Of a DNA stretch of 64,000 nt, positions 21,153 to 35,464 are shown one piece after another. Source of the DNA: Halolamina pelagica. Its GTDB lineage: Archaea > Halobacteriota > Halobacteria > Halobacteriales > Haloferacaceae. Every line of letters starts with the position of its first letter. Position 1 is the first letter of the stretch. The position numbers and the translations under genes are program-made. Under the pieces are notes generated by a model. It ran no database searches, had not been told where the DNA came from, and saw only the letters and a list, made by a program, of their open reading frames with translations. The DNA is taken from NCBI RefSeq assembly GCF_900115675.1, contig NZ_FOXI01000001.1, positions 434,001 to 498,000 of the forward strand, written 5' to 3'.

Positions 21153-21743
21153 TCATTCGGTCTCGGGTTCGGCCACGTCGTCCCCGTCGGCGTCGCTGGG
21201 GTCGGCATCCACGTCGGCGTCGGTGGCGTCGTCGTCGCGCGAGTCGTCGGTGTCACTGGCCCCCTCGTCGGCGTCTCGGACCGAGATCGTCACGGGTCCG
21301 TCCTCGTCGCCGTCGTCGTCCCGGGTCAGCTTCTCGTCGAGGTTGAACACCGCGTTGAGCTGGCTCTGGACCTGTCCGACCGCCCCCGAGACGAGTTCGC
21401 TGGGGGAGATGGCCTCGTACTCGTAGGGGTTGTTGCCGGCGCCCTCGCTCTCGCGTTTCCCGCGGGAGACGGTGTCCTCGTCGTGGAGCTCCGCCAGCGC
21501 CTCGCGAACCGTACTCGGGTAGAGTCCCGTCCCCTCGGCGACTTCCTCGCTGGTGCTGTTCGGGTGCTGTCGCAGGTAGACGTAGATCCGCGCGCGGGTC
21601 TCGGTGTCGAGCAGCCACGCGAGCAGATCGACGACGCCCTGGTCGAACTCGCCGATGGCCTTGTCGGCGCCCTCTTCGAGCCGTTCCCGCGCCGAGTTGA
21701 GTTCGGAGTCCCCGGTCGTGTCGTCTTCGGGCTTTCCAGACAT
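21153..21743 (-). CDS. Winged-helix transcriptional regulator with acidic tail
   Basis: A 196-residue protein. Residues about 35-105 form a winged helix: LLDTETRARIYVYLRQHPNS, TSEEVAEGTGLYPSTVREAL (recognition helix) and a wing. The pattern resembles TrmB/ArsR-type haloarchaeal regulators. The C-terminal 60 residues are almost only Asp, Ala, Glu, Ser and Val. It is transcribed towards coaD and may be co-transcribed with it. Ligand and targets are unknown; a pilus-locus regulator is possible because it lies just beyond the pilin genes on the same strand. Confidence 0.7.
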   Translation of the reverse strand: MSGKPEDDTTGDSELNSARERLEEGADKAIGEFDQGVVDLLAWLLDTETRARIYVYLRQHPNSTSEEVAEGTGLYPSTVREALAELHDEDTVSRGKRESEGAGNNPYEYEAISPSELVSGAVGQVQSQLNAVFNLDEKLTRDDDGDEDGPVTISVRDADEGASDTDDSRDDDATDADVDADPSDADGDDVAEPETE

Positions 21744-21869: not shown

Positions 21870-23375
21870 TCAATCCAGTTCGACTTGGATCTCGTTCTCG
21901 GTCACGTGGAGGTAGGTGATGTAGGTGCCGCCGGCGCCGGGGTCGTAGTCGAGGACCCCCTTCGACGCGGCGTGGTCGAGGTGGACCCCTCCCCCGGATC
22001 CCCCGGTGGTACCGTGGGCGTTCACGGTGAACTCGTCACCCAACTTCGCGACGTAGTGTCGGGTGAGGAGGTACGTCGTCGCCGAGTCGTTCTCCACGAA
22101 CGTTCTCGGCTCACCGTCGGCCGTGTGGTTGAAATCGATGTCGGTGGCGAATGGCTGGTTCCAGTCGAGTTCCGTGCCGTCGGGGCTTGCGTCTTGGTAC
22201 GTGAGGTTCAAGCCGTTCGTCGCGTCGCCCGCGGTGAGGTCGACGACGAGCCGGGAGGCGCCGTTGCTCTCCTCGATCCGGACCGGGCCGGTGTCAGCGT
22301 CGACGCTCTTGTTCGCCCACACGTGCTGTTCGTTGGTTTCCGTGTTCCGGTAGAACATGTACAGTTCGAGGTGGTCCGGATTCCCACCCGAGGGCACGTG
22401 CACGAGATACTCGAACTGGTGCTGGTCGGACTCCAGGTAGAAGCCGCCGTCGTAGTTGTTGAAGCCGCTCCCCTGGCTCTCGGTCTGGAAAGTGACGTTG
22501 AAGTCGGTGAGACTGTGGCCCGGCGCCTGCCCGCGAGCGGTGAGTCGGTCGTTGGAGATCACGTCGTTGAGCGTGAACTCGCCGATCGAGGCGACCGTTA
22601 CCAGTTCCACGCTCGCGCGGTTGCGGTCGTGGTCGACGGAGACCTCGCCGGTCGTCCGGGTACGGAAGTACTCGGCCCACGCCTGGTAGAACTGGCTCTT
22701 GACCGTGACGGTCACGTTCCCGGAGGTGACCGGGTTCTCGTACGCGGTGTTGTCGCCGTACGGCGCACCCTCGTCGCTCCAGTTCTCGTCGGCGTCGCTC
22801 GCGGACGCGTTCGGGAACACCTGTCGGGAGTCGTTCTGCCGCGTGACGAGCGCGGTCGTCGGTCCGGAGGCCCGCGAGTCGGAGGTCACTCGCATCACCG
22901 GCAGCGTCAGCGTCGCGCCGCGGTAGTTGAACTCCGGCGGCGAGCGCATCACGCTGCCGTTATCGCGGCGCTCCCAGACCCCGCCGCCCTGGTAGCCGAT
23001 CACCACGTCGTCGTTCCGGTAGCTCACCGAGCCCAGCGAGGCGTTGTAGATCGTCTCGTTCTGGCCGGAGCCGGTCGCGTTCTGGTGGACGATCCGGAGC
23101 CACCCGGCGTCCCCGTCGGTGACGAACTCGCCGTTACCGGAGGGCCCCAGATCGACACGCTGGGAGCTACTCTCCCCCAGGGCGACGATCGCCGCCTTGG
23201 AGTCGAACTGCGTCAGCGAGTGCCCCGCCTGTGACACCGTCGCCCCGCGCTCGGCGTCGGCGAAGGCCTGCGAACCGAGGCCGACGACGACCCCGGTACC
23301 GAGGATGGTGATGCCCAGGAGCAACACCACCCCGACGACGCTCGAGACGGCACGGTCGGTATCCGATCCCATCAT
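21870..23375 (-). CDS. Large pilin-like protein, type IV N-terminus (probably DUF7289 family)
   Basis: A 501-residue protein with a class III (pilin) signal: MMGSDTDRAVSSVVGVVLLL, where cleavage by PibD would follow Arg-Ala and leave the hydrophobic assembly helix. The remaining 460 residues are rich in Asp, Ser, Thr and Asn-x-Ser/Thr sequons, so the mature domain is likely extracellular, beta-rich and perhaps N-glycosylated. It is far larger than a normal major pilin, which suggests a tip adhesin or minor pilin. It is the last gene of the pilB-pilC locus, 79 bases after the preceding gene. The DUF number is from memory. Confidence 0.7.
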   Translation of the reverse strand: MMGSDTDRAVSSVVGVVLLLGITILGTGVVVGLGSQAFADAERGATVSQAGHSLTQFDSKAAIVALGESSSQRVDLGPSGNGEFVTDGDAGWLRIVHQNATGSGQNETIYNASLGSVSYRNDDVVIGYQGGGVWERRDNGSVMRSPPEFNYRGATLTLPVMRVTSDSRASGPTTALVTRQNDSRQVFPNASASDADENWSDEGAPYGDNTAYENPVTSGNVTVTVKSQFYQAWAEYFRTRTTGEVSVDHDRNRASVELVTVASIGEFTLNDVISNDRLTARGQAPGHSLTDFNVTFQTESQGSGFNNYDGGFYLESDQHQFEYLVHVPSGGNPDHLELYMFYRNTETNEQHVWANKSVDADTGPVRIEESNGASRLVVDLTAGDATNGLNLTYQDASPDGTELDWNQPFATDIDFNHTADGEPRTFVENDSATTYLLTRHYVAKLGDEFTVNAHGTTGGSGGGVHLDHAASKGVLDYDPGAGGTYITYLHVTENEIQVELD

Positions 23376-23454
23376 CTATCGCTACGGCCTCCACAGTGAT
23401 AGGTGCACTCCTCCACACCGGTTAGATCAACGTCACGACGACGTGCACGATCGC

Positions 23455-23988
23455 TCACGGTGCCTCACCCTCCTCGTACACAACGAGTTCCGGGTCGCCG
23501 TCGCCGTCGTCGTCGGCGACGACGATCGTCACCGGGCCGCCCGAAAGCGTCCCGTTCGCGACCGGGTTCTCGGTCCGGAAGCTGACGTTCCGGGTCACGT
23601 CGACGGATTCGGCGCTGACGACGACGGTCCCCCGAGCGGGCTGATCAGCCGGTGTCGGGTGGTTCACCAACCGGAGCCTGTACTCCCCGCCCGCCCCGAC
23701 GTCCGCGGGGAGCCAGACGTCGACCTCGACGGTGCCGTTCTCCGCAGCGCCCGCGAGCCTGTCGGCGTCCTCGAGGCCGCCGGCGAGCTGCTGGCCCGAG
23801 ACGGACAGTTCGTCCGCCGTGATCGCTTGTCGCTGGTCCTCGATCAGTCCCCCGCCGGCGATCAGGAGGCCCGAGACCAGCACCGCGGAGATCGAGAGCG
23901 TGAGCGTGTACGCGAGCGTCGTCGAGACGGCGCGCTCGTCGCCGAGCAGGGGCCGATCGGATCCCGCCGTCGTGGGCCCGTCAGTCAT
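23455..23988 (-). CDS. Pilin-like protein (probably DUF7266 family)
   Basis: A 177-residue membrane-anchored protein. After 18 polar residues comes ERAVSTTLAYTLTLSISAVL, a pilin-type signal with predicted cleavage after Arg19-Ala20 and a hydrophobic helix. The mature part is acidic with beta character (VEVDVWLPADVGAGGEYRLR) and ends in an Asp-rich region. It overlaps the preceding gene by 8 bases, so translation is coupled. It is probably a minor pilin assembled by the upstream PilB/PilC. Confidence 0.7.
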   Translation of the reverse strand: MTDGPTTAGSDRPLLGDERAVSTTLAYTLTLSISAVLVSGLLIAGGGLIEDQRQAITADELSVSGQQLAGGLEDADRLAGAAENGTVEVDVWLPADVGAGGEYRLRLVNHPTPADQPARGTVVVSAESVDVTRNVSFRTENPVANGTLSGGPVTIVVADDDGDGDPELVVYEEGEAP

Positions 23989-24925
23989 CGTCGCCGGCCT
24001 CCCCGGGGGCGACCCGGAACTCCGACTGGTAGAGGAGATCTGCGGCCCGGTAGGTGACGCTGAGGTCGGCGCTGTACAGCGCGGGGGCGACCGTCGGGGC
24101 GCCGGCGTCCTCGTCGGCCCCGGTCACGAGACTGCCCTGCTGTCGATCGACGACCAGCGAGTAGGTCCCGTTGACCTGTTCGTTCCCGCTCCCGTTGAGG
24201 GCGTCAACGTAGCCGATCGTGTACGCACCCGAGAGGTTCTCGAAGAACTGCATCTCGGGGCACTCCTGTCCGGCGAGCGTGCCGCCGGTGACGTCGACGA
24301 TCGCTCGGTCGTCGGTTCCGGGATCGACCGTACAGCCGTCGCCGACCTCGGTATCCGTCTCGTCTTCGACGGTGATCGACACGTTCCCCCCGTCCTGGTA
24401 GAGGTAGATCCCCCACTCGTCGGTGCCGTCGTCGAAAGTCACCTGGAACGCGTCCGTCGCACCCGTCCTCAGCGAGCCCTGCGTCACGTTCATCCGGAAC
24501 GCCCGCGCGTGGCTGTCCCCGGCGACGGTCCAGTTCGAGTTCCCGTTGTCGTCGGTGAAGTTCCGATCCGACTGCTGGGCGATCCGGCTCCCGTTGGTCA
24601 GGTCCACAGTCGTCAGGTTCGTGGCCGCCAGCGACGCTCCCGAGTGCGTGTGTGCGAGCTCGCTCCACCCCTGGACGCTGTCGGTGAAGTTCCCCCGGAC
24701 CTCGGAGTAGTTGCTCCCCTCGGCGGCGTCGATGCTCGACTGCGCCATCGTCGTGGCCTCGTTCTCGTACTCGATGGCCTCGCCAGCCCCGGTGCCGGCG
24801 TCGCGGGTCGCCACGTTCCCGGTGTAGATGGCGGCGTTGAGCAACACCGCGAGCGCGACCAGCATCACCGCCAGCGTGAGCGCGCCCACGAGGAGCAACT
24901 GCCCGCGATCGTCTACATCCGCCAT
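23981..24925 (-). CDS. Pilin-like protein (probably DUF7261 family)
   Basis: A 314-residue protein starting MADVDDRGQLLLVGALTLAV: Arg7-Gly8 then Gln9 at the predicted PibD cut, followed by a long hydrophobic helix. The mature domain has many Asn-x-Ser/Thr sites and resembles an extracellular beta-rich domain. The start ATG at 24925 lies 13 bases inside the gene before it, and its end overlaps the next gene by 8 bases. The long upstream extension of the same frame is antisense-like noise and is not part of the protein. Confidence 0.7.
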   Translation of the reverse strand: MADVDDRGQLLLVGALTLAVMLVALAVLLNAAIYTGNVATRDAGTGAGEAIEYENEATTMAQSSIDAAEGSNYSEVRGNFTDSVQGWSELAHTHSGASLAATNLTTVDLTNGSRIAQQSDRNFTDDNGNSNWTVAGDSHARAFRMNVTQGSLRTGATDAFQVTFDDGTDEWGIYLYQDGGNVSITVEDETDTEVGDGCTVDPGTDDRAIVDVTGGTLAGQECPEMQFFENLSGAYTIGYVDALNGSGNEQVNGTYSLVVDRQQGSLVTGADEDAGAPTVAPALYSADLSVTYRAADLLYQSEFRVAPGEAGDDD

Positions 24926-25524
24926 ACGACCACCTCCACCTCCAGCACGTTGTACACCCGGCTCTCGTCCGCGTCGGGGGCGAAGAAGTTCGCCTCCGTG
25001 AGCGTCGTGTTCGTGCGTTCGGTCGACTCCGTGGACTCGTTGGTCTCGCGGAGCACGTCGTCGTCGTACACCGTGAACGACCGGGTGGCCGTCGACGCGT
25101 GATCCGAGGGCGACCCGAGATCGACCAGCTGTACCGGGTGGCGGCTCCGTTCCCCGCCGTCGGTGATGAAGTACACGTTCACGTTGAACGCGATGTTGCG
25201 CTCCCGCAGCGTCCGGTCGAGGGCGTTCCCGAACGCGGTCGGGGGGCCACCGCCGTGGAACCCTCCCGATTCGGCCCGGGAGAAGTGGCCGCTCTCGTTC
25301 CAACTGAGCAGCGTCGGTACGACCGTCCCGCTCTCGGCCTCCGTGGCCAGCACCCCCTCGGCGAGTTTCGCCTGTTGGTTCTCGATGTGCTGGCTCGACG
25401 TACTCCCGGTCAGCGGCGTTACGGCGGTGACCTGCAGCGCGAACAGCAGGCTCGCGAGTAGCAGCATCCCCGCCGTGATCGCCTCCAGGGCGTGGGCCTG
25501 CCCGCGATCGCCGCCCGTCACCAC
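24913..25524 (-). CDS. Pilin-like protein (probably DUF7288 family)
   Basis: A 203-residue protein with N-terminus VTGGDRGQAHALEAITAGML: the Arg-Gly-Gln cleavage motif and hydrophobic helix of the same group as its neighbours. The body includes NVNVYFITDGGERSRHPVQL and several Thr/Ser-rich stretches. Two adjacent GTG codons (25524 and 25521) can start it; both overlap the TGA of the previous gene. The overlaps at both ends mean it is translated as part of the operon. Confidence 0.7.
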   Translation of the reverse strand: MVTGGDRGQAHALEAITAGMLLLASLLFALQVTAVTPLTGSTSSQHIENQQAKLAEGVLATEAESGTVVPTLLSWNESGHFSRAESGGFHGGGPPTAFGNALDRTLRERNIAFNVNVYFITDGGERSRHPVQLVDLGSPSDHASTATRSFTVYDDDVLRETNESTESTERTNTTLTEANFFAPDADESRVYNVLEVEVVVWRM

Positions 25525-26018
25525 GCACGCACCTCCAGCCAGTAGGTCGTCCCGTCGATGGCGACCGTCCGGCGGGCCGTGGTCACCGAGACGCCGCTCG
25601 GTGGATCGCTCCCGGCCGCGAGGGTCGTGCCGTCGACGACGGCGGCGCCGCCGCCCGTGTTCTCGATCCGGATCTGCATCGCCTGTCCGGGCTCGAGGGC
25701 GAACATCCCCTGTATCGTGGTCGCGTCCGTGTCGAACCGGCAGTCCGACGGGACCGTGGTCCCGCCGTCCAACTGGTCGAAGAAGGCGACCGTGCAGTTG
25801 CGATCGAGCAGGTACGGCTCGTCGGGGGCGCCCAGCCGCTCGGTCGCCACCGAGGTCGCGACGCGGTCCGCGATCTGGGCGTCGCCGGCGCCGACGAACG
25901 GCGCGAACATCCCCGGGATGGTGGCGACGACGAACGTGACCGCGACGAGGAAGATCCCCACGCCGATGGCGTAGTCGAGCACGGTCTGCCCGCGTTCGTC
26001 GTCGACGGGGCGGCTCAC
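25518..26018 (-). CDS. Pilin-like protein (probably DUF7287 family)
   Basis: A 166-residue protein, GTG start, N-terminus VSRPVDDERGQTVLDYAIGV. The cut after Arg9-Gly10 would place Gln at +1 and Asp at +5, the place where type IV pilins carry Glu. A hydrophobic helix follows. The mature domain contains two Cys (NCTVAF and SDCRF) that could form an extracellular disulfide. It overlaps the pilC stop in a GTGA arrangement. Of the five pilin-like proteins it is the closest to a classical pilin. Confidence 0.72.
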   Translation of the reverse strand: MSRPVDDERGQTVLDYAIGVGIFLVAVTFVVATIPGMFAPFVGAGDAQIADRVATSVATERLGAPDEPYLLDRNCTVAFFDQLDGGTTVPSDCRFDTDATTIQGMFALEPGQAMQIRIENTGGGAAVVDGTTLAAGSDPPSGVSVTTARRTVAIDGTTYWLEVRAW

Positions 26019-28036
26019 ACTACCACCACCCAGACCGCCAGCGCCAGCGTCTGCAGGATCACGACGAACTTCACGCCGGAGATGATCTGGGCGTCGCGGA
26101 TGTAGCCCGAGATGAACCCCGAGAGCACCGCCTGCAGCGTCACCGCGTGCAGGAACAGCAGCGAGAGCAGTTGGGTGTCGATGCTGGCGCCGAAGCTCAG
26201 CCCGCCGGCGCTGCCGCCCCCACCGCCGCCCATCCCCGCCATCGTGTCGAGGAACTGCACCTTCAGGATCGCCATCACCGCGAGCAGCGTGATGTACGTC
26301 ATCAGGATGATCGCGACCTGCATCCGCGTCCGCGACTTCCGCTCGCGCTCGATGTCGTCCTGGTTCTCCGAGGACTGCGCGGCCGTCGAGAGCACGTCGG
26401 TGATCTGGCTCGACGCCTCCTGGGCCTCCGCGATCAGCTTGATCGTCCGGGCCAGCCGGGGGATGTGGTACTTGTTGTTGAACTCGACCATCGCCCCCCG
26501 CAGGCTCATCCCGTAGTTCACCTTCGCGTACATCACCTCGAACTCGTCGGCGAGTTTCCCCGTCGACGTGTCGGCGACGGTCTCGATCGACTCGAGCAGC
26601 GTCTGGCCCGTGTCGTTGGCCGAGGAGAGCTTCCGGAGGTTCTCGGAGAGTTTCCCGGTGATCGACCGCCGCGTCATCCCGTTCCACTCGTAGAAGAACG
26701 CCAGCGGCACGAGCGTCATGTAGGAGGGGACGTAGAACCAGACGACCGTTCCCCAGATCGGGTTCGCGATCATCCCGTCCCACGTCGTCGGCATCGAGCC
26801 GTCGACGAACAGCACGCCCATCACGGCCAGCGCCGTCGGCACCGTGAGCGCCAGCGTGAACAGCGGGTTGTCCCGGAAGAAGAGCTGGGGCGCCGAAAGC
26901 AGCTGCTTGGTCTTGTAGTTCCCCTCGCGGGACTTGATGCGGTTGAAGACGCTGAACCCCCCCGTGAACGACTCGATCAGCCCGAGGTGGAACAGCCCCT
27001 CGTCCTGGCTGGCCTCGAGTCGCTCGTTGCCCGTCCCCGGCGAGAGGTAGCCGTCGCCGGTCTCGTCCTGCTTCACCGTCGAGATCAGCACCAGAAAGCC
27101 CACCCCGATCAGCGGGATCAGGGCGTAGACGGTGCCGTAGATCAGCTGCTCCCGGCCGCTGCCCATCATGCTCATCACGACGAGGATGATGATGAGCAGC
27201 AGGGGGAACAGCGAGAGGGTCATGTACATCTCGCCGAACAGCTCCAGGGTCTCCAGCGTGGTCTCCTGCTCCTGTTTGGCGGTGCGCATGTGCTTCTCCT
27301 TCTTGTCGTAGAGGAACTGCTCCATGTCGCCCCCGGAGTTGATGATCGAGAGCATGTCCGTGAGGAACTGGGAGAGTTCGTCGCTGGGCGTCTCCATCGA
27401 CTGCTTGCGCACCGCGTTCCGGTAGTCGGTGCCGAAGTACTCCGTCTCGTTGACGATGCTCTGGAACTCCTTCGCCACCTCGCCGTACGTGTCGTCGGCC
27501 TCGGCCATCGACTCGAGGATCTCGAGTTGGTTCAGTCCCCCGACGGAGAGCGCGTACATGTAGGAGACGGAGTCCGAGAGCAGCATGTTGATCTCCCGCT
27601 TGCGCGTCGAGGCCCGGGAGTAGGGGATCGCCACGATCGTCCCGAACCCCATCCCGAAGCCGATGCTGCCGAACACGAGCCCCGACAGCAGGATCACCGC
27701 CGGCACCGTCGCCGCCTTCAGCGCCGCCGCCATCTCGGCGCTCCCGACGGGGATTCCGAGACTGAGAGCCTCGGGGGAGATCAGCCCGAACTCGAACACG
27801 GCCCACCCGAGCAGGCTCCCGACCAGCCAGAGCGCGCCGCCGACGAACATGCCGACGGCGAGCGCCCGCGAGAGGTAGAGTTCGACCGCCTGGTTCATCC
27901 GGGCCTCGGTCAGTTTCCCCTCGACGTCGCTGACGAAGTCCCCCTCCGAGTTGAACAGGAGCTCGTACAGCGGGTAGAACGCGTCCGCCAGCGCACCCGA
28001 GTCGCCGTCGCGGCCCTCGCCGAGTTCGAGGCTCAT
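26015..28036 (-). CDS. pilC: Pilus assembly membrane protein, PilC/TadC type
   Basis: A 673-residue polytopic protein, the platform of the archaeal type IV pilus machine. It holds two T2SSF (GspF-type) domains: the first around residues 130-260 (MLLSDSVSYMYALSVGGLNQ, then GEVAKEFQSIVNET), the second around 470-570 (SANDTGQTLLESIETVADTS). Each is followed by membrane segments such as LFPLLLIIILVVMSMMG. The doubled arrangement is usual for archaeal PilC/FlaJ relatives of this length. Its ATG directly follows the pilB TAG, and its end overlaps the first pilin-like gene. Confidence 0.88.
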   Translation of the reverse strand: MSLELGEGRDGDSGALADAFYPLYELLFNSEGDFVSDVEGKLTEARMNQAVELYLSRALAVGMFVGGALWLVGSLLGWAVFEFGLISPEALSLGIPVGSAEMAAALKAATVPAVILLSGLVFGSIGFGMGFGTIVAIPYSRASTRKREINMLLSDSVSYMYALSVGGLNQLEILESMAEADDTYGEVAKEFQSIVNETEYFGTDYRNAVRKQSMETPSDELSQFLTDMLSIINSGGDMEQFLYDKKEKHMRTAKQEQETTLETLELFGEMYMTLSLFPLLLIIILVVMSMMGSGREQLIYGTVYALIPLIGVGFLVLISTVKQDETGDGYLSPGTGNERLEASQDEGLFHLGLIESFTGGFSVFNRIKSREGNYKTKQLLSAPQLFFRDNPLFTLALTVPTALAVMGVLFVDGSMPTTWDGMIANPIWGTVVWFYVPSYMTLVPLAFFYEWNGMTRRSITGKLSENLRKLSSANDTGQTLLESIETVADTSTGKLADEFEVMYAKVNYGMSLRGAMVEFNNKYHIPRLARTIKLIAEAQEASSQITDVLSTAAQSSENQDDIERERKSRTRMQVAIILMTYITLLAVMAILKVQFLDTMAGMGGGGGGSAGGLSFGASIDTQLLSLLFLHAVTLQAVLSGFISGYIRDAQIISGVKFVVILQTLALAVWVVVV

Positions 28037-31000
28037 CTACTCTTCGCCCTCCTCGTCGAGTGACCACGAGTCGATATCGACGCCGTCGTCCGAGCCGTCG
28101 CTGGGGTCGTCGTCCTCGTCATCGTCCTCCTCGGGCACGCCAAGGAACAGGTCGTCGGGGTCGTCGGCGTCGTCCGACTCGAACAGCGGCTCGTCGTCGT
28201 CGGAGCCGAAGGTCAGATCGCTCGGATCGTCCCGCTCGTCGGACGGGTCTTCCTCCCACTGGATCGCCGGCTCGTCGGACTCGAGGTCCGCCGAGTCCGT
28301 GTCGTCGGACTCCTCCCCGAACTGGATGGGGGGCTGGCTCGGGTCGTCGTCGCCGGGGTCGTCCCACCCGAGCGGCTCGCCGTCCGACCGATCGCCAGGT
28401 GACTCCCCGTCGTCGAACCGGTCGGTGGCCGACCCGTTCCCGAACGTCTCCTCGGCGGCCGGTTCCTCGTCGAAGGGATCGTCGGTGGCCGGTTCGTCCT
28501 CGGACGGTTCGTTCGGGTCCGGGGCGTCCACGGACTGCGTGTCGGTGGCCAGTTCGTCGTCCGGCCGTTCGTCCAGCGCGGGTTCGGACCCGCTGTCCGC
28601 GGGCGACTCCGCAGCGAACGGGTCCTCGATCGGTCCGTCCCCGTCGAACTGCTCGTCGGCGGGCGTCCGGTCGCCGAATACGTCGCCGTTCGCCCGCTCG
28701 TCGTCGGGGCGGTCGCCGGCGGGCGTCTGATCCGCGACCCCGTCGTCGGAGTCGTGGACCTCGAACCCGTCGTCGGCAGGGGCGGCATCACCGGGCCCAC
28801 CGTCGACGGGCCGATCGGCCGCGGAGTGTCCCTCAGCACTCGGCTCCCCGTCCGACGTTCCGCCGGCGCCGTTGTCGTCGACGGACTGCGAAGCCGTGTC
28901 GTCGGGCGCCTGATCCGGTTCCGTACGGTCCGACGGCCCCTCGGCGGGTGCTTCGTCGTCCGCCGCGGCGGCGGCGTCGGAGTCCGGCAGTTGGTCGTCG
29001 CCGGGTTCGAGTTCGGGCGTCGGGTCGTCGTCCGCCTCGTCGATCGCGTTTCGCTCGTCGCTTCCCCCGTCGATCGCGTCGCGATCGGGGCCGTCGTCGA
29101 CGTCGACGCCTTCGTCGGCCCCGGCGGGCAGTTCGCCGGCGGCGTCGGGAGTCGCCTCGACGTTCCCCTGGGGCTGGGTGTCGACCAGGGCGTCGGCCAC
29201 CTCGTCCGGGGTCTCGCCGTAGTACTGCTCGAACAGCTCCTCCTCCGCCCGCTCGAGGATCTCCTCGGTCTCGGCGAGGATCTCGTCGTTGGGTTCGGGC
29301 CGGGGGACCATCTCCTCCTTCTCGGGGTCGATGTCGATCAGCACGGACTCCATCTCCCGGAGGTCTTCGAGGGAGGCCTCGAGCTGATCGTTGGCCATCA
29401 GCGAGAGGATCGTCTCGGGGTCGTTGATGAACGCCTGGAACGTCGCCGCCACCTGCGTGTAGGTGTTGAGCCCCTCGTGGATCAGGTAGGCCAGCACCGT
29501 CCGGCGTTTGAACATCTCCAGATCCAGCTTCTCGCGGTCCCACCCGCGATCGAACATGATCTCGTCCAGCGTGTTCGAGTCGCCCATCTTCAGGAACTCG
29601 TCGGTCTCGGCCTGCCACTGGTAGACGTCCTGGACGTTGATCTCGTCGTTCTCGGCGTCGTAGTGGTTGATCTCGGTCAGCGACTTGTTCCGGCGCACCT
29701 TCTGGCCCTGCACCCGGGTTGAGGTCTGGACCGACACCAGGTCCAGCGCCGTGAACATCGTCTTCGAGACGTTGATCGGTTCGGTGGTGAAGCGCTTCAG
29801 CACCTCGCCGACGTTGTCGGCGTGGAACGTCGTGTACGTCGTGTGCCCCGTGGACATGACCTGGAACAGCGTCCGTCCCTCCTCGCCACGGATCTCGCCC
29901 ATCACGATGTAGTCCGGACGCTGGCGGAGCGCGGCCTCCAGCAGGTCGAACTCGTCCACGTCGCCCTTGTCGTCGTCGCTGAAGGAGGGTCGGGTCACCG
30001 ACGCGATCCAGTTGCGCTGGGGCAGTTCGACCTCGCGGGTGTCCTCGATGGAGACGATCTTCGTGTTCGACGGGATGAACAGCGAAACCGCGTTCAGCGA
30101 GGTCGTCTTCCCGGACGCCGTCCCGCCCGCGAAGATGAGCGACTTGTGGTTCTCGATACAGAGCCAGAGGAACGCCATCTCGCCGAGGCTGAACGTCTGC
30201 CAGTTGATGAGATCCACCGGCGTGAACGGCACGTCCTTGAACTGCCGGATCGTGTAGTTCGTCCCGTGGTCCGACACTTCCCGCCCGAGGGTCAGTTGGG
30301 CACGCGAGCCGTCGGGGAGCGTGGCGTCGACCTGTGGCCGGCGTTTGGAGATCCCCTTCCCGGAGCGCTGGGCGAGTTTGACGACGAAGTCGTCGAGTTC
30401 GTCCTCGCCGTGGTAGACGTTGGTGATGATCTGCTCGTAGTCGGAGTGGTAGACGAAGACGGGCGAGTTGTACCCGTCACACGAGATGTCCTCGACGTTG
30501 ATGTCGTGTTTGATGCCGTCGATGCGCTCGTAGCCGATGAAGTCCCGTTCGAGGTAGTACAGCAGCTTCTCGACCTGGTACTCGTTGAGGATGTCGGCGT
30601 CCTCCTCGAGCAGCACCGGCTCGGGCCGGACCTCGATCCCCTGGAGCTGTCTGACGCCGTCGACGGGCTCCTGGTACCCCAGCAGGTCGACGACGCGCCC
30701 GGCGACGCCGCTCTCGGGATCGAGCCCGAACGTGTCGGCGACGCGGTTACCGAGCCCGTCGCCCTCGCCGTCGTCGTTCGGTTCCTCGTAGAGATCGTAG
30801 CGGTCGAGTAGCTCCCGCGTCTTGTTCTCGATCACCGATCGGCGGTGGTCCTCGTCGCCGGCGGTCCCGCCCTCGTCCTCGTACTTGATCGACGCCCGGA
30901 GCTTGTCGGTCAGGTACTCCGAGAGCTCGGACTCGATCTCGGTCAGGTGGGGCTGGACGACGTAGTACTTGATCTCGTTCTCCTTCGTGGAGTGGAAGAT

Positions 31001-31744
31001 CACCACGAAGGAGAATGGTTTGTTCACCCAGTAGCGGTCCCGCTCCTCGAAGTGGTGTTTCTTCGCGAGCGGGACGGTCTTCTCCAGGTCGTAGCGGTTG
31101 GCGACGGTGGTTCGCCCCTGCGGGTCCGAGAAGAAGGCGTCCTCGTCGACCTCCCCGTCGACGTTCACCGTCCGCTCGTCGATCAGCTCCTGTAGTTCTT
31201 CGCCGGCCCGCTCGCAGTCGGCCATCGTCGCGTCGAGCGACTCCGGCGGGACCCCCAACGCCGCCTCGGCGTCGAACGCCTCGGGTTCGCCCTCGGCGTC
31301 GGTCGGCGGGTCGCCGTTCTCGTCGTAGAAGTACTCCCGCTTGTAGTCCTCCCAGCCGTAGATGTCCTTGATGACCGGCGTTTCGTCGTAGCCGATCAGC
31401 TCCGAGTAGTCGGTGATGTCCTGTGCCACCATTCCCGCGGCGCCGATGCGCGCCTCGATCTCCCACGGCGGGAACCCCAGGTACTCGCCGGGGTCGACGT
31501 CGGTCCGGTCCCAGTCCTCGCGAGTGAGCGTCCGCTCCTTCTCGCCCCAGCGGTCGCTGCCGGGGGTCTCGTCGAAGCGCTGGTAGAGCGTCCGTGCCGC
31601 CTCCGGTTCCCCGTGCTCCCGAAGGAAATCGTCCCACGTGTACGACCCGACGACGGCGTCCGGTCCGTCGTCGGTGGGTTCGGCCGGCTCCTGGACCTCG
31701 CCGTCAAGCGGGCTCGGAGTGGAGTCACCCTCGTCGGTAGCCAT
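28037..31744 (-). CDS. pilB: Type IV pilus assembly ATPase PilB with very long acidic tail
   Basis: A 1235-residue secretion ATPase that drives pilus assembly at the cytoplasmic face. After a haloarchaeal N-terminal region come Walker A AGGTASGKTTSL (about 539-550), the Asp-box region KIVSIEDTREVELPQRNW, Walker B with VMGEIRGEEGRTLFQVMSTG, and the His box GHTTYTTFHADN. The enzyme core ends at about 850. A tail of about 380 residues follows, nearly all Asp, Glu, Ser, Pro, Gly and Ala, with small aromatic patches near the end (PIQFGEESDD, AIQWEEDPSD, PLFESDD, DLFLGVPEE). It is first in the operon. TATA elements are not obvious before its ATG. Confidence 0.88.
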   Translation of the reverse strand: MATDEGDSTPSPLDGEVQEPAEPTDDGPDAVVGSYTWDDFLREHGEPEAARTLYQRFDETPGSDRWGEKERTLTREDWDRTDVDPGEYLGFPPWEIEARIGAAGMVAQDITDYSELIGYDETPVIKDIYGWEDYKREYFYDENGDPPTDAEGEPEAFDAEAALGVPPESLDATMADCERAGEELQELIDERTVNVDGEVDEDAFFSDPQGRTTVANRYDLEKTVPLAKKHHFEERDRYWVNKPFSFVVIFHSTKENEIKYYVVQPHLTEIESELSEYLTDKLRASIKYEDEGGTAGDEDHRRSVIENKTRELLDRYDLYEEPNDDGEGDGLGNRVADTFGLDPESGVAGRVVDLLGYQEPVDGVRQLQGIEVRPEPVLLEEDADILNEYQVEKLLYYLERDFIGYERIDGIKHDINVEDISCDGYNSPVFVYHSDYEQIITNVYHGEDELDDFVVKLAQRSGKGISKRRPQVDATLPDGSRAQLTLGREVSDHGTNYTIRQFKDVPFTPVDLINWQTFSLGEMAFLWLCIENHKSLIFAGGTASGKTTSLNAVSLFIPSNTKIVSIEDTREVELPQRNWIASVTRPSFSDDDKGDVDEFDLLEAALRQRPDYIVMGEIRGEEGRTLFQVMSTGHTTYTTFHADNVGEVLKRFTTEPINVSKTMFTALDLVSVQTSTRVQGQKVRRNKSLTEINHYDAENDEINVQDVYQWQAETDEFLKMGDSNTLDEIMFDRGWDREKLDLEMFKRRTVLAYLIHEGLNTYTQVAATFQAFINDPETILSLMANDQLEASLEDLREMESVLIDIDPEKEEMVPRPEPNDEILAETEEILERAEEELFEQYYGETPDEVADALVDTQPQGNVEATPDAAGELPAGADEGVDVDDGPDRDAIDGGSDERNAIDEADDDPTPELEPGDDQLPDSDAAAAADDEAPAEGPSDRTEPDQAPDDTASQSVDDNGAGGTSDGEPSAEGHSAADRPVDGGPGDAAPADDGFEVHDSDDGVADQTPAGDRPDDERANGDVFGDRTPADEQFDGDGPIEDPFAAESPADSGSEPALDERPDDELATDTQSVDAPDPNEPSEDEPATDDPFDEEPAAEETFGNGSATDRFDDGESPGDRSDGEPLGWDDPGDDDPSQPPIQFGEESDDTDSADLESDEPAIQWEEDPSDERDDPSDLTFGSDDDEPLFESDDADDPDDLFLGVPEEDDDEDDDPSDGSDDGVDIDSWSLDEEGEE

Positions 31745-31851: not shown

Positions 31852-32442
31852 ATGCGCGATCTCGACGAGACGGACCTCCGGATCATCGAACTGCTCGCGG
31901 CGGACGCCCGTCAGCCGTACAGCGACATCGGCGACGACGTGGGGCTGTCTGGGCCTGCAGTCTCGGACCGCGTCAAGCGCCTGCAGGACTCCGGCGTCCT
32001 GAAGCGGTTCACCGTCGACGTGGACCGTTCCCAGTTGCGCGCCGGCGTCCCGGTGTTCGTCCGCCTCACCGTCGACAGCGGGATGGCGGGGCTCCGCGAG
32101 CGCGTCTCGTCGGCGAGCGCCGTGGAACACCTGTTCGTGACGGCCGACGGGGAGCTGTTGTTCTACGGTCGCGCGCAGGCCGACGGCGTCCGCGATTGGC
32201 TGGCGGACCTGATCGGCGACGCCGACGTTCGCGAACGGGAGGTCTCGGTCGTCGACGACATGGAGTGGACGCCCGCCCTCGGGGGCGTCGAGTTCGCGCT
32301 CACCTGCGCCGAGTGTGGCAACACGGTCGACAGCGAGGGCGAAACCGAACGGCTCGGCGGCGACGTGTACCACTTCTGTTGCCCCTCGTGTCGCTCCCGG
32401 TTCGTGGAGCGCTACGAACGGATGGAGGCGGGTGCGGAGTAG
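31852..32442 (+). CDS. Lrp/AsnC-type regulator with C-terminal TRASH domain
   Basis: A 196-residue protein. Residues 1-60 are an AsnC winged helix (DLDETDLRIIELLAADARQP, then SDIGDDVGLSGPAVSDRVKR). The middle is an RAM-like effector domain. The last 50 residues are a TRASH metal-binding domain: CAECGNTVDSEGE, then YHFCCPSCRSRFVERYE. In Halobacterium a protein of this architecture controls copper export genes, so a copper or other soft-metal sensor is the best guess. No copper ATPase is visible here. It is divergent from pilB. Confidence 0.82.
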   Translation: MRDLDETDLRIIELLAADARQPYSDIGDDVGLSGPAVSDRVKRLQDSGVLKRFTVDVDRSQLRAGVPVFVRLTVDSGMAGLRERVSSASAVEHLFVTADGELLFYGRAQADGVRDWLADLIGDADVREREVSVVDDMEWTPALGGVEFALTCAECGNTVDSEGETERLGGDVYHFCCPSCRSRFVERYERMEAGAE

Positions 32443-34542: not shown

Positions 34543-34970
34543 CTGCCGGCCGTTTCCCCCCGATTAGCGGACGAGGTCCCGCTGTGGTGCGGTAGGGACA
34601 CGGATAAGTACGGACAAACGACTTGCCGATCGACGAACTCGGGACCCGGATCAGTGAGCTCCGAGATGGAGAATCGGTGAAGCTTCACCCCAATGGTTTC
34701 GGCATCGGAACGTGTCGAAGTGCCGAAACTGTCCTCTGCACCTCACAGGGGGAGTTAACGCGGTCAGTGGCATCCCGTCCGTGGTTCCTTCGGACGCCCT
34801 TCGACGGAATCCGGTTTCACGTGCGAAGACTTCGAATCTCGGGTGAATCGCAGACGGCGTCGACCCCCGTCCAGAGATGGGTTCGAATCACCCTCGATTC
34901 AGGTGCGAAATAAAGTCTGTCGTGCCGCTGTACGGCGGTTTCGGCGGTAGCTGTGCGGTATGCGGTGCAG

Positions 34971-35043
34971 CGGGCGTGGTGGGATTCGAACCCACGCTCG
35001 AGGAGTTAGGAACCCCTCGCCTTGTCCGCTAGGCCACACGCCC
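34971..35043 (-). tRNA. tRNA-Arg (anticodon CCT)
   Basis: A complete cloverleaf reads on the minus strand. The acceptor GGGCGTG pairs with CACGCCC, the D stem is GCCT/AGGC, the anticodon stem is AGGGG/CTCCT with loop TTCCTAA (anticodon CCT), and the T arm is GTGGG-TTCGAAT-CCCAC. The discriminator base is G and no CCA is encoded. It decodes AGG. It lies just after tatA on the same strand. Its 3' end faces the gene-poor stretch, the usual side for element integration. Confidence 0.96.
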
Positions 35044-35088: not shown

Positions 35089-35370
35089 CTACTGGGTCGT
35101 CGAACTCTCGGTCTCCGTTTCCTCCTCGTCGGCGTCGTCGGTCGCCGTCGACGAGGTCGTGCTGTCGTCCGCCTCCGGCCCCTCCTTCATCTCTTCGAGC
35201 TCCTGGTTCAGCTCCTGTCGGCCCTTCTGGAACTCACCCATCGCCTGCCCGGTCGAGCGGGCCAGCTTCGGGATCTTGTTCGCGCCGAACAGCAACACGA
35301 GAACGAGGAGGATGATGACGAGCTCTGGTCCCCCGGGAATCGGTACTTGAAGCGGCGCAGTCTGGAACAT
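35089..35370 (-). CDS. tatA: Twin-arginine translocase subunit TatA
   Basis: A 93-residue TatA-type protein. The N-terminal membrane helix is PGGPELVIILLVLVLLFG, followed by ANKIPKLARSTGQAMGEFQK, the amphipathic helix, and a polar acidic tail rich in Thr, Ser, Glu and Asp. The start at 35370 (MFQTAPLQ) matches haloarchaeal TatA; an upstream GTG would add seven non-family residues. TatA forms the pore for folded Tat substrates, and haloarchaea export most secreted proteins this way. TatC is not in the window. Confidence 0.9.
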   Translation of the reverse strand: MFQTAPLQVPIPGGPELVIILLVLVLLFGANKIPKLARSTGQAMGEFQKGRQELNQELEEMKEGPEADDSTTSSTATDDADEEETETESSTTQ

Positions 35371-35464
35371 CTCTATGGTGATATACCCCACAATCGACTA
35401 TAGGCCTTTTGGAAATTCGGACCGCGGGAGAGTCCTTTTTCCCGCGGCCGGCAGACGTACCCAC

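Follow-up and report, generated by a model that had tools for sequence, protein, structure and literature searches.

The minus strand of the DNA analyzed here probably encodes a pilus of the PilB4 type that is assembled from a dedicated, heteromeric set of pilins, that includes a long pilin with a lectin-like domain, and that descends from a six-pilin array whose terminal genes were later exchanged. The window, by which we mean the whole stretch of DNA analyzed, comprises 64,000 nucleotides of the Halolamina pelagica genome (contig NZ_FOXI01000001.1, positions 434,001 to 498,000), and coordinates refer to it unless another contig is named. Judged by the architecture of its ATPase and by its pilin set, the locus appears to match the published PilB4-type (clade 2) euryarchaeal pilus, and thus the system itself is already known. 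What is contributed here is a proposed six-gene ancestral array, the repeated exchange of its terminal genes, the apparent relocation of the short pilin gene in Halolamina, and a lectin-like reading of DUF7308. PilB4 pili are encoded in most haloarchaea, and neither a function nor a filament is established for them in the papers examined.

Gene order and junctions of the pilus locus

In a row on the minus strand lie pilB, pilC, and five genes for proteins with class-III (PibD-type) signal peptides, arranged as follows.

28037-31744, minus strand: pilB, PilB4-type assembly ATPase of 1235 aa (Pfam T2SSE, 1.8e-31; PilB3_C at threshold, PilB3_N below threshold)
26015-28036, minus strand: pilC, membrane platform protein of 673 aa (T2SSF in two stretches, 2.2e-27)
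25518-26018, minus strand: pilin 1, DUF7287, GTG start (Pfam 3.4e-47)
24913-25524, minus strand: pilin 2, DUF7288, GTG start (Pfam 2e-61)
23981-24925, minus strand: pilin 3, DUF7261 plus an extra region (Pfam 6.1e-9 over aa 5-124)
23455-23988, minus strand: pilin 4, DUF7266 (Pfam 1.6e-23)
23376-23454, minus strand: 79-nt gap separating pilins 4 and 5 (in most relatives these two genes overlap instead)
21870-23375, minus strand: pilin 5, long type, DUF7289 plus DUF7308 (Pfam DUF7308 7.6e-50, DUF7289 1.9e-19; Pilin_N 4e-4, under its cut-off)

A sequence-only reading had recognized a type IV pilus locus in which five consecutive pilin-like genes follow pilB and pilC. The Pfam families and the PilB and PilC domains bear out this description, and its coordinates are exact. 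The PilB protein consists of an N-terminal extension, a T2SSE/VirB11 core (aa 465-685 of 1235), and a C-terminal tail of ∼420 aa. This tail (28037-29300, minus strand) is acidic, with a median of 34% Asp and Glu among the tails of its relatives, and is probably disordered. A WGFG motif occurs in 19 of 47 PilB tails. The T2SSF gene directly abuts pilB (0 nt at the pilB/pilC junction), in keeping with the TadC-like platform gene that adjoins the ATPase gene in PilB4-type loci.

The second euryarchaeal clade 2 pilus was described by Makarova et al. (2016; PMC4858521), with the PilB4 locus of Haloferax volcanii as its type example. The ATPase of this pilus bears extra N- and C-terminal regions, and the system has its own pilin set, consisting of a predicted dedicated major pilin and a minor pilin of variable length (250-550 aa). 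The system was judged unlikely to depend on PilA, and its pilins were assigned to arCOG02911 and arCOG03926 (PMC4858521). Variable length and duplication are the only features by which DUF7289 fits arCOG02911. The names DUF7287, DUF7288, DUF7261, DUF7266, DUF7289, and DUF7308 were not found in the literature searched, where the system is described under arCOG numbers.

Other assembly ATPases are encoded in the same genome. A PilB3-type ATPase, distinct from the PilB of the window, is encoded elsewhere, and another pilB locus of the genome (C22) contains a DUF7289-type pilin; DUF7287 and DUF7288 were not found there. This locus is possibly of the PilB1-C1/pil-2 (subclade 4C) type. Five T2SSE matches are present in the genome, one of which is a PINA-type ATPase. 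None of the five scores above the archaellum FlaI cut-off, and the organism may be without an archaellum.

The gene junctions define a chain of overlapping frames that holds four of the five pilins. The overlaps measure 4 nt between pilC and pilin 1, 7 nt between pilins 1 and 2, 13 nt between pilins 2 and 3, and 8 nt between pilins 3 and 4. If pilin 2 started instead at an alternative GTG at position 25521, its overlap with pilin 1 would be 4 nt. The sizes of these four overlaps had been read exactly, but the coupling drawn from them does not extend to the fifth pilin, which lies 79 nt downstream.

In Haloferax, coupling requires that the genes overlap: Overlaps of -8 to -1 nt are the usual case, and termination-reinitiation is nearly lost at a distance of ∼20 nt (PMC10666635). 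Pilins 1 to 4 are likely to be translationally coupled to pilC, with the 13-nt overlap being unusual. Because a gap of 79 nt is too long for coupling by the standard of Haloferax, pilin 5 is predicted to be uncoupled. The locus differs in this respect from those of most other genera, where the fifth gene does overlap pilin 4 (33 of 41 loci). It had also been proposed that the proteins are made in fixed order and amount. A fixed amount could apply at most to pilins 1 to 4, and coupling alone does not fix equal amounts.

Several neighboring genes are also of interest. Divergent from pilB is a gene (31852-32442, plus strand) for an Lrp/AsnC-type protein with a C-terminal TRASH metal-binding domain (PF24273), which is a possible regulator of the pilus operon. 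Directly downstream from the cassette, a TrmB/Lrs14-like winged-helix protein is encoded (21153-21743, minus strand); such a gene accompanies the cassette at only 3 of 41 loci, and these all belong to Halolamina. A gene for a TatA-like protein (35089-35391, minus strand) adjoins a tRNA-Arg(CCT) gene (34970-35043).

Features and predicted assembly of the pilins

The N-terminal signals of pilins 1 to 5 read DDERGQ, GGDRGQ, DVDDRGQ, GDERAV, and DTDRAV, respectively, and each is followed by ∼18 mostly hydrophobic residues. The class-III motif ([KR][GA] plus a hydrophobic stretch) is matched by all five pilins, by 0.4% of shuffled window proteins, and by none of the three flanking genes tested. This agrees with the earlier assignment of PibD-type signals, three with R-G-Q and two with R-A-V. 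The five pilins are predicted to be PibD substrates with cleavage at RG/Q or RA/V. Their mature lengths would be ∼156, 195, 306, 157, and 493 aa, in line with the range of about 150 to 490 residues estimated before. No prepilin peptidase gene lies beside the locus, as had been noted: The whole genome has one Peptidase_A24 match, and it is located on a different contig.

The residues that follow the predicted cleavage site differ among the pilins. In pilin 1 (DUF7287), R9, Q11, and D15 are invariant in 62 sequences, which places Gln at +1 and Asp at +5. Pilin 2 (DUF7288) has Glu at +6 in all 41 N-termini listed, and pilins 3 to 5 have no acid near +5. Acidic residues in the vicinity of +5 are reminiscent of Glu5 in bacterial pilins and of the archaeal QxSxE class. 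These positions were taken from the DUF7287 alignment and the list of N-termini, because an automatic residue count around the cleavage site was out of register in many sequences. The N-terminus of pilin 5 is similar to archaeal Pilin_N, with the match falling below the cut-off, and a sequence search of solved structures with this N-terminus returned weak archaeal pilin matches only.

Asn-x-Ser/Thr sites number 11 in pilin 3 (3.5 per 100 aa) and 13 in pilin 5 (2.6 per 100 aa), and both values are above those of shuffled sequences. The enrichment in such sites that had been ascribed to one large protein is therefore real, but it is found in two proteins rather than one.

Structure predictions give the pilins further character. 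In the AF2 model of DUF7287 (pLDDT 92), a small beta domain or sheet comes after a long N-terminal helix, and the modeled protein follows the usual pilin plan. Foldseek gave no match to this model better than E 0.1, no solved structure matched it clearly, and a DUF7287 sequence search of solved structures returned unrelated helical proteins only. The AF2 model of pilin 5 has a pLDDT of 86 overall and of less than 50 at the N-terminus. The nearest fold matches to its C-terminal domain (aa 263-481) are galectins, legume lectins, CBM40, and the C-terminal domains of GH32/GH43, all with Z values of 5.2-6.6, below 8. These proteins share the concanavalin A-like jelly roll. The jelly-roll-like region is weakly consistent with an adhesive domain, and the Z values below 8 may reflect a common arrangement. 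As modeled, pilin 5 may carry a sugar-binding-type domain. The suggestion that the large pilin is a tip adhesin gains modest support from this lectin-like match, but its role is something we infer rather than observe.

In the mechanism that we favor, PilB4 and PilC4 would polymerize the dedicated pilins once the one prepilin peptidase of the genome, encoded in trans, has processed them. DUF7287, DUF7288, DUF7261, and DUF7266 would be made in comparable amounts from their overlapping frames, and these coupled pilins would together form a single heteromeric pilus or the complex that initiates it. The long pilin (DUF7289 plus DUF7308) would be initiated separately and would display its jelly roll for attachment, with the filament tip or the length of the filament as the most likely site. 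In this lineage, the gene of the long pilin takes the place in the operon that belongs to the short DUF7289 gene in other genomes. We infer the heteromeric assembly, the adhesive role, and the position in the filament. Our best guess for the major pilin of the published model is DUF7266 (pilin 4), which has a PilA-like N-terminus and a typical size.

Another explanation is that all of the co-encoded pilins are minor pilins that prime the filament or form its tip, as in bacterial type II secretion systems and type IVa pili, and that PilA-type pilins encoded elsewhere might form the shaft. Such an arrangement would fit several features of the locus. The overlaps between frames point to similar amounts of the proteins, as would suit a small complex better than a shaft, and the invariant acid at +5 of DUF7287 takes the place of bacterial Glu5. 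Moreover, haloarchaeal PilB3 uses pilins that are encoded in trans (PMC4858521). However, to regard all five proteins as minor pilins, as the sequence-only reading did, conflicts with the published model, which predicts that the set has a major pilin of its own and makes dependence on PilA unlikely (PMC4858521). In addition, PilB4-C4 make no PilA pili when PilB3-C3 are missing (PMC4371748). As to the proposed resemblance to bacterial minor-pilin and type II secretion arrays, neither Pfam nor NCBIfam gave a match to GspH/I/J/K or FimU/PilV/W/X/E, and no fold match to them was found for DUF7287. We regard an entirely minor set as unlikely.

An improbable alternative is that the locus builds a short pseudopilus, used for secretion or for holding surface proteins, rather than an extended pilus. 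The mature domains are large and diverse, with the long proteins of the set reaching 500 to >1000 aa in relatives, and no filament of the PilB4 system is reported in the papers examined. Against this possibility, we noticed neither secretin-like nor cargo genes in the stretch read, and archaea of this kind are not known to have an outer membrane. Furthermore, related loci (pil-2, PilB1) have been linked to filaments or adhesion (PMC4858521, PMC6491452). An extended PilB4-type pilus with its own heteromeric pilin set is the reading that we prefer.

Conservation of the set and the exchange of short and long pilins

DUF7287 is present in 272 of the 292 genomes of the class and in 73 of its 77 genera, and DUF7288 reaches beyond the class (261 of 393 genomes of the phylum). 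When one genome was taken from each of 40 genera (Halolamina was sampled more than once), the pilin order DUF7287-7288-7261-7266-7289 was found to be kept in 40 of 40, with one locus (L050) being without DUF7261. The junction between pilins 2 and 3 overlaps in all 40 genera, and that between pilins 3 and 4 overlaps in 39. In four loci (L052, L059, L064, and L074), pilBC is not directly upstream of the pilins. The idea of a single pilin set had been staked on the five proteins keeping together in other genomes, and they do so except for the one loss of DUF7261. These comparisons support the view that the pilins are one co-inherited set.

Some lineages depart from the common pattern. All eight sampled genomes of one genus (g39, family f8) are without DUF7287, which makes this genus a candidate for having lost the PilB4 pilin set throughout the lineage. 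Tandem duplication of the cassette is seen at three loci (L111, L125, and L167), and a second, partial cassette lies on the opposite strand in Salinibaculum (L163). At three non-haloarchaeal loci (L128, L129, and L131), the third or fourth pilin frame reaches 600 to >900 aa, and thus large display domains do not seem to be confined to the terminal gene.

The end of the array is its most variable part. In other classes of the phylum (L117-L131), the genes run DUF7287-7288-7261-7266-short DUF7289-long DUF7289/DUF7308 on one strand and often overlap; DUF7261 is unrecognized in some of these loci, and some are cut by contig ends. In most haloarchaea (63 loci, with some genomes counted twice), the operon has the short gene as its fifth pilin gene, and the long gene follows in convergent orientation. 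The pair is exchanged in Halobellus, Halogeometricum, Halopenitus, and one further genus, where the long gene is in the operon and the short gene is convergent. In Halolamina, the long gene is the only one of the pair at the locus. An iterated DUF7308 profile also caught the short paralogs, and short and long proteins were therefore told apart by length and later by separate profiles.

In a tree of 140 sequences, the short and long types separate at 99% SH-aLRT regardless of their position. Because the tree makes this split wherever the genes are located, the genes appear to have moved with their identity unchanged. The short and long types are best read as old paralogs. A tree of PilC and three pilins calls for two separate changes to the long-in-operon state. 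One falls in the common ancestor of Halolamina, Halobellus, Halogeometricum, and the further genus (a clade with a support of only 81%), and the other falls in Halopenitus. By this reconstruction, the long gene entered the operon position at least twice. As judged from these relatives, the conserved, ancestral set is six pilins, not five. The five-pilin set first described is indeed conserved, but relatives have six pilins, and gene 5 of Halolamina is most simply viewed as a swapped-in paralog.

The short DUF7289 gene of this genome stands alone between hydantoinase-like and elongation-factor genes (C21; L076:7348-8100). Relatives of the short gene are found away from the cassette in five of six other Halolamina genomes searched, and in one they are split over three fragments. 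The short pilin has apparently moved out of the pilus locus in this genus.

A phase-variable DNA-inversion switch that chooses which pilin is joined to the operon is very improbable: The terminal pair is arranged tail to tail, occurs in both orientations among genera, and has undergone at least two independent exchanges, but the orientation is constant within each well-sampled genus (e.g., 8 of 8 Halobellus [g3] genomes), the five longest inverted repeats at each of seven loci include none that bounds the pair, and the N-termini keep their type after exchange. It would be a long shot to propose that the short and long pilins serve the same pilus as alternative caps and that the exchange in the operon is adaptive, possibly with rare switching within populations. 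If this were true, the gene in the operon position would determine the surface-binding protein that is produced in concert with the PilB4 machine.

For the PilB4-type pilus that we favor, the six pilin families, whose order is the same in Halobacteria and in other classes of the phylum, provide a defined set for single-gene dissection. Likewise, the exchange of the short pilin for the long, lectin-like pilin in some genera is a natural experiment on which pilin governs attachment.

Comparison with known systems

The bacterial arrays GspHIJK and FimU-PilVWXE likewise have several class-III pilins in a row, with a large one last. In contrast to those arrays, the mature domains of the Halolamina set are without detectable homology to them, and pilins 3 to 5 are without an acid near +5.

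The PilB3-C3/PilA1-6 adhesion pili of Haloferax have the ATPase and platform families and PibD processing in common with the Halolamina system, and pilin 5 shares the Pilin_N-type N-terminus. However, the PilB3 locus of Haloferax is without pilin genes, unlike the PilB4-type locus of Halolamina. The PilB1-C1/pil-2 loci (subclade 4C) have overlapping pilBC and pilin genes, as is the case here, whereas their ATPase is of different origin according to the literature.

The closest counterpart is the PilB4 system. According to a 2015 review, H. volcanii expresses PilB4-C4, which likely form a structure containing two co-encoded pilins of relatively large size (PMC4371748). The PilB4 protein was detected in H. 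volcanii cells in one medium only, GMM (PMC7305310), and pilB4-C4 transcripts drop during HFTV1 infection of H. gibbonsii (PMC12542753). Like the PilB4 locus of H. volcanii (the HVO_1160 system), the Halolamina locus encodes an ATPase extended at both its N- and C-termini, a TadC-like platform, and co-encoded pilins that include one of variable length. The difference between the genera is found at the end of the array. In the Haloferax species examined (H. volcanii itself not among them), the short pilin is in the operon and the long pilin is convergent, whereas in Halolamina the long DUF7289-DUF7308 pilin is in the operon.
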